A stretch of 64,000 nt of DNA. It comes from Synechococcus sp. BO 8801 (GTDB lineage Bacteria > Cyanobacteriota > Cyanobacteriia > PCC-6307 > Cyanobiaceae). A program made the position numbers and the translations under genes. Location of the stretch: NCBI RefSeq assembly GCF_002252675.1, contig NZ_NQKY01000003.1, forward strand, positions 186,001 through 250,000. Direction: 5' to 3'. Below the pieces are notes generated by a model that was given only the letters and a program-made list of their open reading frames with translations, was not told the origin of the DNA and did not search any database. This document shows positions 32,111 to 49,466 of the stretch, piece after piece (position 1 is the stretch's first letter; each line of letters starts with the position of its first letter).

Positions 32111-35100
32111 ATGGGTGAACGTGGGGGATCGGCAGACCACATCGCGACCCTCCACGATCGCCTGGCCGATTTCTGCCTGATCGCCGACCTCACCGACACC
32201 GACCTGCTCGCCTCCGATGCGCTGAGCGGCGAATTTCTCGCCTGCAATGATTCAGCCCACACCCATCTGGGGTACAGCATCCCGGAACTGCTTGCCCTGT
32301 CCCCGGAAGCGATCCAGGCCGATCCCGATCACGACGCTGCCTGGGTGGCCGAGCGTCGCCGCGAGCTGATCGCCGCCGGCGGCGGGACCATGCACACCCG
32401 TCATCGCTGCAGCGATGACTCCATCCGCGATGTCATCGTCCGCAGCCGTGTCCTGGAGATCGACGGGCAGCAACTGATCGTGAGCTGCGTCAGCGACGAA
32501 ACCCAGCAGCGCCATCGGGAAATCCAACTCGCCGACACCCTCTCCCTGCTGGAGGAGGGATCCTCGATCAGCGGCATCGGTGTCTGGGATCTGCGCTTCA
32601 GTGACGGCCGCATGCGCTGGTCGGAGCAGACCCGGCGCCTCTGCAAAGGCCAGCGCAGCGGTGAGCACACCTCGCTCCGGGACTACGGCGCCCTGGTGCA
32701 TCCCGACGACCGGCTCCGCTGGCACATGGATGTGCGGCGAGCCGTCACCCGGGGCGATGTGTTCCGCAGCTGCCATCGGCTCTGCTTCGGGGACGGCACG
32801 GAGGTGATGGTGGAGGCTGTGGGTCACCTCAGTTACGACCACAGCGGAGCGCCGGCGCGCATGGTGGGGACCCTCAGGGATGTCACCGGCGAGCAGGCCC
32901 TGATGCAGGCTGTGGCGGGCGAGCGCTCCTGCGACCCCCTCACCGGACTTCCCAACAAGCTCGCCACCCTGGAGGAGCTGAACCGACGCCTGAGCGGTCG
33001 CCGCTACAACGCGTCGATGGCGGTCCTGAGCCTGGATGTGGATGGTTTCGGGGACATCAACGACCACTTCGGATCCGATGTCGGCGATCGGGTGCTCCGC
33101 GCCATGGCCGGCCGGCTGCGGGATCTGATCGGCCCGGGCGACTGGCTGGCGCGGCTGGGCAGCGACCAGTTTCTGATCCTCATGGAGGAGGGAGTCCGCT
33201 CCATCGGTGATGCCATGGGCGCCGCCCGTCGTCTGCAGCAGGCGTGGGGCCAGCAGCAGCCGTTACTGAAGGACCTGCCCCTCGACCCGACCTTTTCCGT
33301 GGGCATCGCCACCTATCCCGAGCACGCCCAGGAGAGCCGGACGCTGATCCAGTGCGCCAACACGGCACTGATGAAGGCGAAGGCCCAGGGAAGCCTTCAG
33401 GTGTGTGCGTACTCCAGCACGATCAGCCGCCAGATTCAGGAGCGCATGGAGCTGAGCCTGCAGCTCTCCCAGGCGCTGGATCGCGAACAGTTCCGGCTGC
33501 TGATTCAACCGCAGCGAACCCCATCCAACGCGCTCGCCGGCGGAGAGATCCTGCTGCGCTGGACCAACCATCTGAGCCTCTCGGTACCGCCCAGCCATTT
33601 CCTGCCGCTGGCCGAGGAGAGCGGTCTGATCCTGCAGCTCTCCCCCTGGGTCCTGCGTCAGACCGCCCAGCGGATCAGCGACTGGCAGGCGGCGGGCCTC
33701 CGCCCCCCGCGACTGGCCCTGAACGTCTCCCCGCGGGAGCTGGAGCTGCCGGACGGGCGCTTCATCGGCGCCATGCTGGAGACCCTGGCGGAGCACCAGC
33801 TGCGGCCGGAGCAGCTGGAACTCGAGATCACGGAAACGGCGTTGATCCGCAATCCCCTGCTGGCCCGTGAACAGCTGCGGGTGCTGGCCGATCAGGGGTT
33901 CCGGATCGCGATCGACAACTTCGGAACCGGCTATTCCTCCCTGGAACTGCTGCGGACCCTGCCGGTCCATCGGCTCAAGATCGATCGCACCTTCGTGCAG
34001 GCGCTGGCGACCTCCCCCGTCGATCAGACCATCGTGGCCACCACCATCGCCCTGGCCCATGGCCTGGGGATGGAATGCACCGCCGAGGGGGTGGAGACCG
34101 AGGAGCAGCGCCGGATGCTGCAGGATATTGGCTGCGACTGCTTCCAGGGCTTCCTGTGCGGCCCTCCACTGGAACCGGAGGCCTTCGAGGCCCTGCTCCT
34201 GAATCCGGACGCCGCCGTGATGCCTCCCCCGGAGCGCTGGTCGAGCGCGCCGCAGGGCAGCGAAGCCCCGTCCAGCCTGCCGACGGATGGGGCCCATCTG
34301 CCCGGCACGTTCGAGCAGCTCACGTTGCTGCGAACGGCCGTGGACGCCAGCCGCGATTTCTTTCTGCTGCTGCAGTCGGTCCATCGCCATGACGGCAGTA
34401 TCGAAGACTTCCGGGTTCTGGATGTCAACAGAGCCGTCTGCTCCCACCTGCAGCAGGACCGCGAGGCGATCCTGGGCCAGACCCTGCTGGCCATCAGCCC
34501 GTCGATGGGCCAGAAGGGCCTGATCGATCTGTATGGCGATGCCGCCATGCGCAACGTCCCCACCGCCGTCAGTGGCTTTGCCGCCACCGATGGGCCCATG
34601 GCCACGGGCCGTCGCCTGTTCGACATCGAGATCACCCCGGAGCGCGGCATGCTCGCGGTCACCTGGCGGGATGTGACCGAGCAGGACCAGGCCGCCCGCA
34701 GCCTGGCGGATGTGGCGGCCCTCTACCGACTGCTCGCCGACAACATCGTCGATGTGATGCTGCTGCTGAACCACCACCAGCAGGTGGTGTGGGTGTCGCC
34801 GTCGCTGCAGCCGATGACGGGCTGGCAGCAGAAGCAGTGGCACGGCCGGAGGTTCCGGGATCTGTTCGCCTCCGCCGAGGAGCCACCCGGGCCGGTGGAT
34901 CTCGACCAGTGGCTGGCGGAGTCGGGCCCGATCCGCCAGGGCCGTCTGCGGCTGGCCGATCCCGGCGGAGGCTGGAGCTGGGTGCAGCTGAGCGTCCGCA
35001 GGCTCGACGGCGACCAGCTGCGCAGCCTCGATACCCAGGGGGTCGACACCAGTGGCGAGGTGGATCCGGTCGGGGCCCCCCTGAGCCTGGCCCATGGCTA

Positions 35101-35650
35101 TGTGATCACGCTCCAGCCGGTGGATGAGCAGGTCCTGGAGGAACGCCTGCTGCTGCAGCGCGCCAACACCGATCCCCTCACGGGCCTCTGCAGCCGCGCC
35201 GCCATCCTCGAGCGGCTGGAGCGGCTGCTCCTGGATGAACGAGCCCACAGCGCCCAGCCCCTGGCCCTGCTCTTCTGCGACTGTGACGGCTTCAAGGGCA
35301 TCAACGATCGCCATGGCCATGCCTGCGGTGATGCGGTGCTGAGAACCGTGGCCCGCAGGATCCAGGCCCGGACCCGCCGTGGTGACCATGCCGGCCGGAT
35401 CGGCGGTGATGAGTTTCTGCTGCTGCTGGAGGGGATCGAGCATCTGGAGGATGCGATCGCCTTCGCCGAAGACCTCCAGACCAGCATCAGCGAGCCGATC
35501 ACCTGGAGTGACGCCACCCTCGAGCCCTCGTTCTCGATCGGCATCGCCCTGCACGGGGCCGGGGAGGATGCGGATCTGTTCCTCCGGCGGGCCGACCGCA
35601 ACATGTACACAGCCAAGGCCGCCGGCCGCCACCGGGTGGTCGCCCTCTGA
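32111..35650 (+). CDS. PAS-PAS-GGDEF-EAL-PAS-PAS-GGDEF cyclic-di-GMP protein
   Basis: 1179 residues, cytosolic (no TM seen). Order by my reading: PAS (about 20-125), PAS (150-265), GGDEF with the altered motif LARLGSDQF (about 349), EAL (455-700), PAS (745-860), PAS (870-1000) and a canonical GGDEF (RIGGDEFLLLL, about 1097) with an RxxD inhibition site (RRGD) just upstream. The EAL domain has EILLRW in place of EALLRW and AIDNFGTGYSS in place of DDFGTGYSS, while AEGVETEE and RLKIDRTF are kept. The first cyclase is thus probably inactive, the phosphodiesterase questionable and the C-terminal cyclase intact. ATG 32111 follows about 170 nt of intergenic DNA. It lies between two repair genes. Confidence 0.9.
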   Translation: MGERGGSADHIATLHDRLADFCLIADLTDTDLLASDALSGEFLACNDSAHTHLGYSIPELLALSPEAIQADPDHDAAWVAERRRELIAAGGGTMHTRHRCSDDSIRDVIVRSRVLEIDGQQLIVSCVSDETQQRHREIQLADTLSLLEEGSSISGIGVWDLRFSDGRMRWSEQTRRLCKGQRSGEHTSLRDYGALVHPDDRLRWHMDVRRAVTRGDVFRSCHRLCFGDGTEVMVEAVGHLSYDHSGAPARMVGTLRDVTGEQALMQAVAGERSCDPLTGLPNKLATLEELNRRLSGRRYNASMAVLSLDVDGFGDINDHFGSDVGDRVLRAMAGRLRDLIGPGDWLARLGSDQFLILMEEGVRSIGDAMGAARRLQQAWGQQQPLLKDLPLDPTFSVGIATYPEHAQESRTLIQCANTALMKAKAQGSLQVCAYSSTISRQIQERMELSLQLSQALDREQFRLLIQPQRTPSNALAGGEILLRWTNHLSLSVPPSHFLPLAEESGLILQLSPWVLRQTAQRISDWQAAGLRPPRLALNVSPRELELPDGRFIGAMLETLAEHQLRPEQLELEITETALIRNPLLAREQLRVLADQGFRIAIDNFGTGYSSLELLRTLPVHRLKIDRTFVQALATSPVDQTIVATTIALAHGLGMECTAEGVETEEQRRMLQDIGCDCFQGFLCGPPLEPEAFEALLLNPDAAVMPPPERWSSAPQGSEAPSSLPTDGAHLPGTFEQLTLLRTAVDASRDFFLLLQSVHRHDGSIEDFRVLDVNRAVCSHLQQDREAILGQTLLAISPSMGQKGLIDLYGDAAMRNVPTAVSGFAATDGPMATGRRLFDIEITPERGMLAVTWRDVTEQDQAARSLADVAALYRLLADNIVDVMLLLNHHQQVVWVSPSLQPMTGWQQKQWHGRRFRDLFASAEEPPGPVDLDQWLAESGPIRQGRLRLADPGGGWSWVQLSVRRLDGDQLRSLDTQGVDTSGEVDPVGAPLSLAHGYVITLQPVDEQVLEERLLLQRANTDPLTGLCSRAAILERLERLLLDERAHSAQPLALLFCDCDGFKGINDRHGHACGDAVLRTVARRIQARTRRGDHAGRIGGDEFLLLLEGIEHLEDAIAFAEDLQTSISEPITWSDATLEPSFSIGIALHGAGEDADLFLRRADRNMYTAKAAGRHRVVAL

Positions 35651-46325: not shown

Positions 46326-47570
46326 ATGAACGTCCCTGTCCAGCGGCCCGATGGCGGCAGGCCGAGGCAGCGCTTCGGGCTGCGCTTCGGGCCCCGGAAA
46401 TCACGAGGAGGACAGCATCCGGCACGACAACCGGTGGCATCGATTCAGCAGGTCTTCACGCTGATCGCGATTGTCAATGGGCTTGTTCTCCTGTACCTGG
46501 TGATTGCCGCCATCCAGGTGCTGAAGGTTCCTGGTGGCCGGTCAGCAGAGATCTACGTCTCCCTGATTCTGACCCTGCTGCTGGTCATCCTGGCGATCAT
46601 CTCGTATCAGATCATCGCCAGGCGCATCATCCTGCCCATCGCCCGACTGGTCAGGGAAGCCAGTGCGATCGAGAGCGACGACATGAGCAGTCTGCTGACG
46701 ATCCGGAGCAACGACGAGATCTCCCGGCTGGCGCAGGCCTTCAACGTGGTACTCACCAAGATGCGGCAGGCCCTGATCGCCGGTGAGGCCAGCAACCGGC
46801 AACTGCTGGAGGCGAACCGCCAGATCGAGTCCTCCATCAACTATGCGGGCCTGCTGCAGCGCTCGATCCTGCCGGACCGCCAGCTGCAGGAAACCTTCGG
46901 CAACGACTATTTCATCCTCTGGCTGCCGCGCGACACGGTTGGTGGCGACTACTACATCTTCCACTCGGAAGGCGGGCACTGCCTGGCCGGTGTGGCCGAC
47001 TGCGCCGGCCACGGCGTTTCCGGGGCAATGATGACCATGCTGGCCAGGGCAGGCATCGATCGTTCGATCATGGAGGTGGGCATCACCTCACCGGCGGCCA
47101 TCCTGAGCTGCACCGACACCGCGATGCGCACCCTGCTGCATGGCGCCAGGATGAGCAAGTCCATCGCCACCAGCATGGACATCGGGCTGGTTCGCCTTGA
47201 CTTCGAAGCCAGGACACTTAGATTCTCGGGTGCAAAGATCAGTCTCTATTGGAGTGATGGGCAAACCATGCACATGCTCAGGGGAGACCATCGGGCCATC
47301 TGCGACCAACGGGTCGGCTCCTACACGGACCACGACATTCCGTTGCAGCCGGACTGCACCTACTACCTCACCACCGACGGCCTGCTGGACCAGTCAGGCG
47401 GTGACAACGGCTTTTCCCTCGGCACCCAGCAATTCAAGGAATGGCTGATCGGACTGGCCCGCCAGCCGCTGGAGCAGCAGCGTCAGGCCCTGGCCGATGC
47501 CCTTGAACAGTTCCGCGGCAGTCATCCCCAGCGGGATGACATCACGATCCTTTCCTTCCGTTTCTCCTAG
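46326..47570 (+). CDS. siaA: SiaA-like PP2C (SpoIIE-type) serine/threonine phosphatase
   Basis: 414 residues. TM1 (about 43-66) and TM2 (77-98) are separated by only about ten residues, then HAMP (ARRIILPIARLVREASAIES, about 98-150), a coiled coil and a PPM phosphatase domain: PRDTVGGDYYIF, ADCAGHGVSGAM (about 222), YYLTTDGLLDQ and QRDDITILSF, so the metal-binding Asp residues are present. In Pseudomonas SiaA dephosphorylates SiaC and so permits activation of SiaD. Here the large periplasmic sensor of the Pseudomonas protein is missing. ATG 46326 (MNVPVQRP) is chosen. It heads the four-gene operon. Confidence 0.87.
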   Translation: MNVPVQRPDGGRPRQRFGLRFGPRKSRGGQHPARQPVASIQQVFTLIAIVNGLVLLYLVIAAIQVLKVPGGRSAEIYVSLILTLLLVILAIISYQIIARRIILPIARLVREASAIESDDMSSLLTIRSNDEISRLAQAFNVVLTKMRQALIAGEASNRQLLEANRQIESSINYAGLLQRSILPDRQLQETFGNDYFILWLPRDTVGGDYYIFHSEGGHCLAGVADCAGHGVSGAMMTMLARAGIDRSIMEVGITSPAAILSCTDTAMRTLLHGARMSKSIATSMDIGLVRLDFEARTLRFSGAKISLYWSDGQTMHMLRGDHRAICDQRVGSYTDHDIPLQPDCTYYLTTDGLLDQSGGDNGFSLGTQQFKEWLIGLARQPLEQQRQALADALEQFRGSHPQRDDITILSFRFS

Positions 47571-47661
47571 AGGACCGACTGATGTCCTATGCGACCATGC
47601 TCAGCGAACGATTCTCCTGGCGCGCCATCGCCGCGCAAGAGCGCCTCTCGGAGTTGAAGCG

Positions 47662-48210
47662 ATGACGATCACCACCACCAGTCTGATGTCTCTGAGGGAG
47701 TTCTTCAGTGACTATCGGATTCTCATCTGCTTCAATGGCCCCATCTCCACCACGCTGATCGGCGAGATTGGATCCGCACTCAAGGAACACATCGAATCCA
47801 ATCACGCGCCTGAACTGGAAGTGATGGATGTGTTCAGTGTGTATATCGAAATGAGTCAGAATATCAGGAATTACGCCACCAGCCATGGCTTCAGCGATGC
47901 CGAGTCCTCCGCCACGGTCGTGATCGCGGCCGCCGAGGCTGGCCATTACGCCGTCTGTGCAGGTAACCTCGTTGAGATGGAGGATGGAAAGGCCCTGCTG
48001 AAGCGGATCCACGAACTCGCCGCCTGTGACAAGCCCCAGCTGAAGGCGCTCTACAAACAGCAGTTGCGCCAGCCCCACTCCCAGACCCCGGGCCAGGGCG
48101 CCGGCCTGGGTCTCATTGAGATTGCCAGGCGCTCAAGCCAACCCATGGAGGCCTCCCTTGACCCCCTTGAGCCCGGTCGCGCTTTCTTCAGCCTTCGGGC
48201 CATCATCTGA
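47662..48210 (+). CDS. siaB: SiaB-like protein kinase (GHKL fold)
   Basis: 182 residues. It has a degenerate GHKL ATP-binding fold: an N-box-like VYIEMSQNIRNYA (about 59-71) and a G-box-like GQGAGLGLIEIARRS (about 145-160). SiaB in Pseudomonas phosphorylates SiaC on a threonine and opposes SiaA. ATG 47662 begins 91 nt after siaA, and the stop is 4 nt before siaC. The gene is visibly less GC-rich than flanking housekeeping genes. Confidence 0.85.
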   Translation: MTITTTSLMSLREFFSDYRILICFNGPISTTLIGEIGSALKEHIESNHAPELEVMDVFSVYIEMSQNIRNYATSHGFSDAESSATVVIAAAEAGHYAVCAGNLVEMEDGKALLKRIHELAACDKPQLKALYKQQLRQPHSQTPGQGAGLGLIEIARRSSQPMEASLDPLEPGRAFFSLRAII

Positions 48211-48214
48211 TCCC

Positions 48215-48610
48215 ATGACCAGCAGCGAAGAACTGAACCTGTCCGTACCGGGCTCCCAGTCCAGCCCTTCGATCCGTGCGGACTGGAAGGCGGGTGTCGT
48301 GGTGATGAGCGGTGAGTCCTATCCTGAGAATTCCTTTGAGCTCTACGACCAGCTGATCCAGTGGATTGAGTCCTATCTCACCACCGCCAACCACTCACTG
48401 ACTCTCGAGCTGCATCTCAACTATCTGAACACCAGCAGCATCCGCTTCATGATCGACATCTTTGATCTGCTGCAGACGGCGTTTGATGAGGGTAAGGAAG
48501 TGCTGGTGCAGTGGATGTTTGATGACCGAAACCCTCGCTCCGCCGAGCTGGGCTCCGAATTCAAGGAAGACTACACCTTTCCTTTTCTGATCCTTTCCAT
48601 CAACGCCTGA
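48215..48610 (+). CDS. siaC: SiaC-like switch protein (DUF1987)
   Basis: 131 residues. DUF1987 shows as VVVMSGESYPENSFELYDQLI (excerpt) and LELHLNYLNTSSIRFMIDIF. Thr73 in LNTSS is, by my recollection of the family alignment, equivalent to the threonine phosphorylated by SiaB and freed by SiaA in Pseudomonas; that assignment is inference. Unphosphorylated SiaC binds and activates SiaD. An N-terminal Ser-rich tail of about 20 residues precedes the fold. Confidence 0.87.
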   Translation: MTSSEELNLSVPGSQSSPSIRADWKAGVVVMSGESYPENSFELYDQLIQWIESYLTTANHSLTLELHLNYLNTSSIRFMIDIFDLLQTAFDEGKEVLVQWMFDDRNPRSAELGSEFKEDYTFPFLILSINA

Positions 48611-48611
48611 C

Positions 48612-49466
48612 ATGCCAGAGACTTCCGGCCCCAAATCTGACGATCAGCTGGAACAGGAAGTCATGGCCGTCCTGGCAGATCAGCGTTACGACAATGATCC
48701 GGTCCGGAACCTGCTGGCCAGATTGTGGCACCGCATCGAAGAGCAGGTGGACCGCCTGGAGCGGGTTGCCGATATCTCCGATCTCTACCAATCCCACGTT
48801 CTGGAGAGTAACCGCAGCCTCACGAATCGCTATGAGAAGCAGCTGCGCCAGATCAAGCGGGTGGTGCGCATCTCTGACCTCTATCAGGCCTCACTGAAAG
48901 AGGTGAATCTCACCCTGTTCGAGGCTTCCACCCACGACCCCCTGACAGGGATCTCCAATCGTCGCTTCATGGCGGAGCGCTGCCTGGAGGAGGATCAGCG
49001 GGCCAGCAGGCATGGCTCCACCTATTCGATGATCATCCTCGATGTTGACCACTTCAAACTGATCAACGACGACTATGGGCATGCCACCGGCGATCTGATG
49101 CTGGTGGATTTCGTCAAGGCGCTTTCCGGCAGCCTCCGCCACTACGACATCATCGCCCGCTGGGGTGGGGAGGAGTTCCTGGCCCTGCTGATCGATGCCG
49201 ATCTGGCCACGGCCGAAGGGGTGGCCAAGCGGATGCTGGCCAACATCCGCAGCATGCGCGTGTCCATCGACGACATGGAGCTGAAGCTCACCGCCAGCAT
49301 GGGCCTGACCGAGCACAAGGCCGACGAGAACTACGACGCCACCTTCCGCCGCGCCGACAAGGCCCTGCTGATGGCCAAGAACAGTGGTCGCGATCGCCTC
49401 GTCGTGATTGATCCCGGCGACCCCCTCGGCCATCGGGAAATCAGCACCCTGGCGGCGACGGAGTAG
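48612..49466 (+). CDS. siaD: SiaD-like diguanylate cyclase
   Basis: 284 residues. The C-terminal cyclase domain has DPLTGISNRRFM (about 110), MIILDVDHFKLINDDYGHATGD (excerpt) and the active-site motif ARWGGEEFLALL (about 184). The N-terminal helical region carries a duplicated segment, RVADISDLYQSHVLESN and RVVRISDLYQASLKEVN, about 35 residues apart, the likely SiaC-binding or dimerising stalk. No TM. It starts 1 nt after siaC and ends the operon, before a hairpin pair. Confidence 0.9.
   Translation: MPETSGPKSDDQLEQEVMAVLADQRYDNDPVRNLLARLWHRIEEQVDRLERVADISDLYQSHVLESNRSLTNRYEKQLRQIKRVVRISDLYQASLKEVNLTLFEASTHDPLTGISNRRFMAERCLEEDQRASRHGSTYSMIILDVDHFKLINDDYGHATGDLMLVDFVKALSGSLRHYDIIARWGGEEFLALLIDADLATAEGVAKRMLANIRSMRVSIDDMELKLTASMGLTEHKADENYDATFRRADKALLMAKNSGRDRLVVIDPGDPLGHREISTLAATE

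Follow-up and report, generated by a model that had tools for sequence, protein, structure and literature searches.

A trimmed SiaABCD-type operon, predicted to be a functional phospho-switch, in Synechococcus sp. BO 8801

Does a picocyanobacterium carry the SiaABCD phospho-switch of Pseudomonas and, if so, what does it sense and how did the genes get there? The question is raised by four co-directional genes at positions 46326–49466 of a 64,000-nt stretch of Synechococcus sp. BO 8801 (the window), which lie in the Pseudomonas order siaA, siaB, siaC, siaD (Table 1). In P. aeruginosa, unphosphorylated SiaC converts SiaD from an inactive pentamer to an active dimer, which four SiaC molecules hold together; SiaB prevents this activation by phosphorylating SiaC, and c-di-GMP inhibits through the I-site (passages of PMC8457831). 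The Sia literature that we found is on Pseudomonas, and no SiaABCD in cyanobacteria was apparent in the titles, abstract starts and term counts among the matches listed, which cover the literature outside subscription journals and preprints. Some of these genes may already be labelled by NCBI automatic naming. We consider it probable that the window operon is a SiaABCD phospho-switch of a trimmed kind and predict that it is functional. If so, c-di-GMP in picocyanobacteria would also be controlled by way of protein phosphorylation.

Identity of the four genes

Pfam detects HAMP and SpoIIE/PP2C domains in SiaA, DUF6272/SiaB in SiaB, PF09345 in SiaC and GGDEF in SiaD. A preliminary description of this DNA had proposed a profile search of the four proteins. 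In this search, SiaB (251.7 bits vs 225), SiaC (187.6 vs 150) and SiaD (303.1 vs 290) exceed the cut-offs of the NCBIfam equivalogs NF038264, NF038265 and NF038266, respectively. SiaA scores 414.5 bits, below the full-length cut-off of 700 for NF038263, and aligns only to positions 298–657 of the 658 in that profile; it falls short because the periplasmic sensor is missing. Thus, we class the system as a variant of SiaABCD rather than an ordinary member. In the PDB, the best matches are all Sia chains: 6k4f (E 7.4e-39) and 6kko for SiaC, 6kko_A (E 5.6e-58) for SiaB, 7e6g_A (E 3.1e-71) for SiaD and 6k4e (E 5e-89) for the PP2C of SiaA, whose catalytic half is thus matched. The kinase fold of SiaB is presumably GHKL-type.

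The preliminary description had named a complete operon of PP2C phosphatase, kinase, switch protein and cyclase in Pseudomonas order, with spacings of 4 nt and 1 nt. Pfam and NCBIfam confirm the four kinds of gene and their order, and the spacings are right for siaB–siaC and siaC–siaD, respectively; siaA and siaB are 91 nt apart. The operon is complete in its genes but not in the domains of SiaA, which lacks the sensor. The start codon of siaA is uncertain (the ATG at 46326 or an upstream ATG or TTG). A scan for promoters and terminators was uninformative, with one promoter-like site vs 0.7 expected and no terminators vs 1.7 expected.

Table 1. Features of the sia block, in window coordinates
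Feature	Position	Strand	Evidence
siaA variant: two-helix membrane hairpin, HAMP and PP2C (SpoIIE-type) phosphatase	46326..47570	+	Pfam HAMP, SpoIIE; PDB 6k4e; AF2
SiaA membrane hairpin, about residues 39–96, with SIQ..F......NG motif at the first helix	46440..46613	+	motif and hydrophobic segments
Probable translation-coupling small ORF, 27 codons, stop overlapping the siaB start (ATGA)	47582..47665	+	frame kept in 16/16 loci
siaB, SiaC kinase	47662..48210	+	NF038264; PDB 6kko_A
siaC, phospho-switch protein, Thr73 in YLNTSSI	48215..48610	+	NF038265; PF09345; PDB 6k4f
siaD, diguanylate cyclase with two SiaC-binding stalk motifs, GGEEF and RxxD I-site	48612..49466	+	NF038266; PDB 7e6g_A

Loci of relatives were found via two peptide patterns, and we used the best 80 of 181 loci, so that sampling outside cyanobacteria is biased. 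The named cyanobacterial relatives among these 80 are Cyanobium, Synechococcus, Aphanothece and Vulcanococcus, and the closest to the window is Cyanobium sp. N.Huapi 1H5 (98% SiaC identity). At all 31 cyanobacterial loci, window included, the four genes are adjacent in the order A-B-C-D; SiaA is incomplete in L061 and L062. L061, a MAG, looks decayed.

We scored key residues at these 31 loci against the matched P. aeruginosa Sia PDB chains. The phosphorylated Thr of SiaC, which is Thr73 in the window and T68 in P. aeruginosa, is retained in 30 of them (Ala in L061), as is the catalytic Glu of SiaB (Lys in L124). SiaD has GGEEF, the metal Asp and RxxD at every locus. The PP2C metal Asp of SiaA is found in 31 loci, or in 30 with one gap, depending on the site, and is present in the window. 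A degraded operon in the window was rejected, with all four frames open and the key residues retained. The window SiaD has recognisable forms of both SiaC-binding motifs; in the first (RIARISD), Asp stands where P. aeruginosa has Arg. Some relatives differ further from P. aeruginosa in having a single recognisable motif: the first is not recognisable in SiaD of L053, L054, L063, L127 and L131, nor the second in L126. A 2:4 complex as in P. aeruginosa can thus not hold for all loci, and in these natural variants one site may suffice.

Taken together, curated HMMs, best PDB matches, key residues and gene order support the identification as SiaABCD. An RsbU/RsbW/RsbV-type sigma-factor partner switch with no relation to Sia would involve similar broad kinds of protein (a PP2C phosphatase and a kinase), and SiaC resembles anti-sigma factor antagonists (a passage of PMC7647112), but this identity is refuted by the NCBIfam profile matches of SiaB, SiaC and SiaD, with a neighbouring SiaD that bears SiaC-binding motifs, and we give it virtually no credence. 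The slr1658/slr1659 superfamily of cyanobacteria (NF047703, NF047705) has a weak likeness to SiaB and SiaC (E 0.0029 and 0.0013); at 17.1 and 19 bits vs a cut-off of 100, it is another family.

The likeness to SiaABCD of P. aeruginosa (PMC7647112, PMC8457831, PMC12834913) extends to the gene set and order, the SiaB, SiaC and SiaD families, the phosphorylated Thr, the SiaC-binding stalk motifs, GGEEF with the I-site and the PP2C output half of SiaA. By homology, the Thr of YLNTSSI in SiaC would be phosphorylated by SiaB and dephosphorylated by SiaA. Unphosphorylated SiaC would then clamp the SiaD stalk and yield an active, product-inhibited diguanylate cyclase. We infer that phospho-transfer, dephosphorylation and SiaD activation are likely to occur.

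The SiaA hairpin and its possible input

Unlike P. aeruginosa SiaA, cyanobacterial SiaA has no periplasmic sensor, and its first membrane helix bears a conserved Asn motif. The window SiaA begins with two hydrophobic helices separated by a short turn and followed by HAMP. An AF2 model of moderate confidence (mean pLDDT 71.6) places the helices at residues 40–67 and 73–118 with a 5-residue turn and no periplasmic domain. The N-terminus is available in 29 of the 31 cyanobacterial loci (the L061 frame is shortened and L062 lies at a contig end). A hydrophobicity scan found two 19-residue segments 12–24 residues apart in 28 of these 29, and a single segment over threshold in L131. Among 56 other sampled SiaA, the main membrane segments are separated by 253–294 residues in 35 and by 124–127 in 11 (Azospirillum); ten have no such pair in the scan, and none has just two segments separated by a short turn. 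For instance, the loci of Verticiella, Aromatoleum and Azoarcus (L068, L066, L075, L064), which carry the same four genes and are, besides P. aeruginosa, the nearest sampled relatives in our trees, have 280–286 residues between the two segments, unlike the cyanobacterial proteins.

The pattern [ST]IQ..F......N[GS] occurs at the first helix in 29/29 cyanobacterial SiaA with an N-terminus vs 0/56 other sampled SiaA. S39, I40, Q41, F44 and N51 are invariant across 23 aligned sequences, although identity to the window drops to 52% among them. Judged from these comparisons, the loss of the periplasmic sensor is a clade trait of cyanobacterial SiaA. A source of the hairpin elsewhere in the window's genome (G000) was rejected: its three other matches are confined to residues 39–109 of the 111-residue query, which comprise the second helix and HAMP, and five SiaC-negative genomes gave no match.

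As SiaA has no periplasmic ligand domain, its phosphatase would most likely be controlled via HAMP and the hairpin of two helices, with either the membrane state or a membrane protein as the source of control. We thus infer that the input to SiaA is of a kind read in the membrane. For P. aeruginosa, PMC12834913 reports that swapping SiaA residues 1–336 for the CusS region abolished high biofilm at room temperature, and thereby the response of the biofilm to cold, and proposes membrane perturbation as the SiaA signal. In that swap, the helices and the periplasmic domain were exchanged together. Cyanobacterial SiaA is a natural version with the helices alone, and the roles of helices and domain are therefore separable.

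The discussion of PMC12834913 also describes polar 'sunken-buoy' residues in the first helix of DesK, a membrane thermosensor. The cyanobacterial hairpin likewise has a polar residue in its first helix, the Asn conserved in 29/29 proteins. Unlike SiaA, DesK belongs to the histidine kinases and spans the membrane with five helices (PMC8301901); we make no claim of homology. Considering the swap result and the polar residues of DesK, we regard the cyanobacterial hairpin, in which the Asn is conserved, as a candidate minimal membrane sensor. More tentatively, the hairpin of picocyanobacterial SiaA might respond to how fluid or thick the lipid bilayer is, as under cold, light or lipid stress, and drive c-di-GMP via SiaC and SiaD. 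If so, the helices alone would suffice for the membrane sensing that has been reported of SiaA in P. aeruginosa.

Two alternatives concern the origin of the signal. The input might have been lost, so that SiaA would be a constitutive phosphatase and the switch would be set by SiaB (e.g. by the energy state of the cell) or by transcription. The absence of the periplasmic domain from 29/29 proteins is consistent with such a loss, and the upstream neighbour gene is not common beyond the window's own group, L121 excepted. However, the S/T-I-Q, F and N of the first helix are kept in 29/29, although identity to the window is as low as 52% among the 23 aligned, and HAMP is kept too; an Asn in a membrane helix is needless for a mere anchor. 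We consider this loss possible but doubtful. Alternatively, the signal might come from a second, sensor-bearing membrane protein that docks on the hairpin, which we consider rather unlikely. Pairing with the helices of a partner is possible for a short hairpin that has a conserved polar residue, but no partner gene was seen to accompany the operon at these loci, where upstream genes vary by group and nrdJ is the gene shared downstream. Across the neighbours at 31 loci, no conserved sensor partner gene was found upstream of the operon.

Origin and age of the operon

The preliminary description had noted that the block is less GC-rich than its surroundings and had taken this as a sign of transfer. 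The dip itself is confirmed, with a GC of 0.603 vs a window mean of 0.702. Only 0.17% of the window's 3141-base stretches are as low, the lowest overlaps the block, and the GC-poorest 3.1 kb of the window begins 54 bases before it. However, GC is below the available flanks at all 31 cyanobacterial loci (one flank only for L062), which makes GC a weak argument for transfer. Support for an origin outside cyanobacteria comes from the trees instead.

The trees were inferred with a quick method and SH-aLRT support only. The first SiaA-B-C tree comprised 74 of 88 loci (L062 is among the 14 omitted); for the second, L099 and L106 were also removed and P. aeruginosa was added. The 30 cyanobacterial rows form one clade (SH-aLRT 100). 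Among the sampled loci of the first tree, Verticiella joins this clade next (97), and in the second tree a pair of P. aeruginosa and Verticiella (87) is its sister (97). These trees support a transfer into cyanobacteria from outside; the donor group cannot be named, as the outside sampling is biased. PF09345 is present in 21 of 201 family-sample genomes (6 of 59 genera). Phylum-wide, 7 of 386 genomes have it: five with strong matches, all of the window's genus and including the window's genome, and two with weak ones.

Neighbouring genes at the 31 loci were assigned by tblastn. A convergent nrdJ lies beyond siaD in 27 of them, across several genera, and was not found next to the operon by tblastn in L059, L062, L127 and L130. 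With the GC dip at 31/31 loci and nrdJ beside 27, the operon has the look of a long-standing resident, in which the dip is no mark of recent transfer. Furthermore, nrdJ is present in 15 genomes without a SiaC match. In the seven of these where its place was inspected, nrdJ is accompanied by a methyltransferase gene (7/7) and prfC (6/7; the L156 contig ends before prfC), no sia match was found beside it, and other genes come after it.

In the NrdJ tree (42 rows), the presence and absence of sia needs at least five changes, or two when counting starred branches only. Most of the small groupings among the Sia sequences are found again in it (window/L041/L042/L132, L054/L063, L053/L131, L055/L056, L058/L060/L124 and L057/L061), and the placement of L121 and L126 differs between the trees. 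One old acquisition followed by later losses fits these patterns best; alternatively, the operon may have been exchanged along with its flank. A recent transfer marked by low GC would agree with the block being the lowest-GC part of the window and with a cyanobacterial clade placed beside Pseudomonadota, but the dip at all 31 loci, nrdJ beside 27 of them and the groups shared with the NrdJ tree strongly disfavour it, and we judge it very unlikely.

Output and the siaA–siaB junction

The preliminary description had linked the operon to colony or aggregate formation. By analogy with Pseudomonas, the output of the switch may be c-di-GMP-driven aggregation. The window's genome has 18 GGDEF matches (17 besides SiaD), so that SiaD may not set global c-di-GMP. 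Possible readers of c-di-GMP are PilZ proteins, with eight matches in this genome at E 0.01 (seven over the cut-off) and six at E 0.001. One is cellulose-synthase-like (TIGR03030, 386.5 bits vs a cut-off of 699.1, on the 631 residues available). PilZ was found in 20 of 21 SiaC-positive family-sample genomes (all but G180) vs 28 of 180 SiaC-negative ones (Fisher p 1.7e-13), if, as the handles indicate, both samples comprise one and the same set of 201 genomes. Genome size confounds this comparison, since the SiaC-positive genomes are also large (2.4–4.0 Mb), and the result is an association only.

Lastly, the window's group differs from P. aeruginosa in a small ORF, probably a coupling one, between siaA and siaB. 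We find it at 16 loci (the window's group of 14, L053 and L131), and no ORF of this kind ending at the siaB start is listed for the other 15 cyanobacterial loci. At all 16, its ATG precedes that of siaB by 77, 80, 83, 95 or 104 nt, always 2 mod 3. The frame is free of stops up to the siaB start and ends at ATGA in 15 loci and one codon earlier in L050. The two remaining frames contain stops in 13 and 4 of the 16 loci, so that the open frame by itself is weak evidence; the five frame-keeping lengths argue more strongly for the small ORF. Its peptide is poorly conserved, which makes translational coupling more likely than a functional peptide.

Base composition and the siaA-siaB junction

The GC dip persists at the sia operon of the window and at the other 30 cyanobacterial sia loci. 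The operon that carries this dip appears to be vertically inherited. The frame of a small ORF that precedes siaB was preserved in all loci examined (16/16), though its length varies.

Sequence features of the window
Feature	Position	Strand	Remark
siaA-siaB-siaC-siaD operon	46326-49466	+	
Small ORF, siaA-siaB intergenic	47582-47665		27 codons; stop overlaps siaB start
1179-aa protein	32111-35650	+	two GGDEF matches

The two GGDEF matches of the 1179-aa protein are spaced by about 2.2 kb, and an EAL-like part lies between them, as judged by eye.

The input part of SiaA

The input part of SiaA seems to have been swapped repeatedly, because no membrane segment was found before the HAMP domain in the SiaA of five non-cyanobacterial loci (L067, L097, L102, L103 and L106).

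Variants among cyanobacterial loci

The operon of L061, a locus from a MAG, is apparently decaying. At this locus, the SiaA frame is shortened, the phospho-Thr of SiaC is replaced by Ala, and the SiaC match on the contig (genome G200) contains a TAA. At the position of the catalytic Glu, the SiaB of L124 has Lys (VYIKMSQNI); nonetheless, all four sia genes are present at this locus. The first SiaC-binding motif of SiaD was not recognisable in L053, L054, L063, L127 and L131, and the second was not recognisable in L126.
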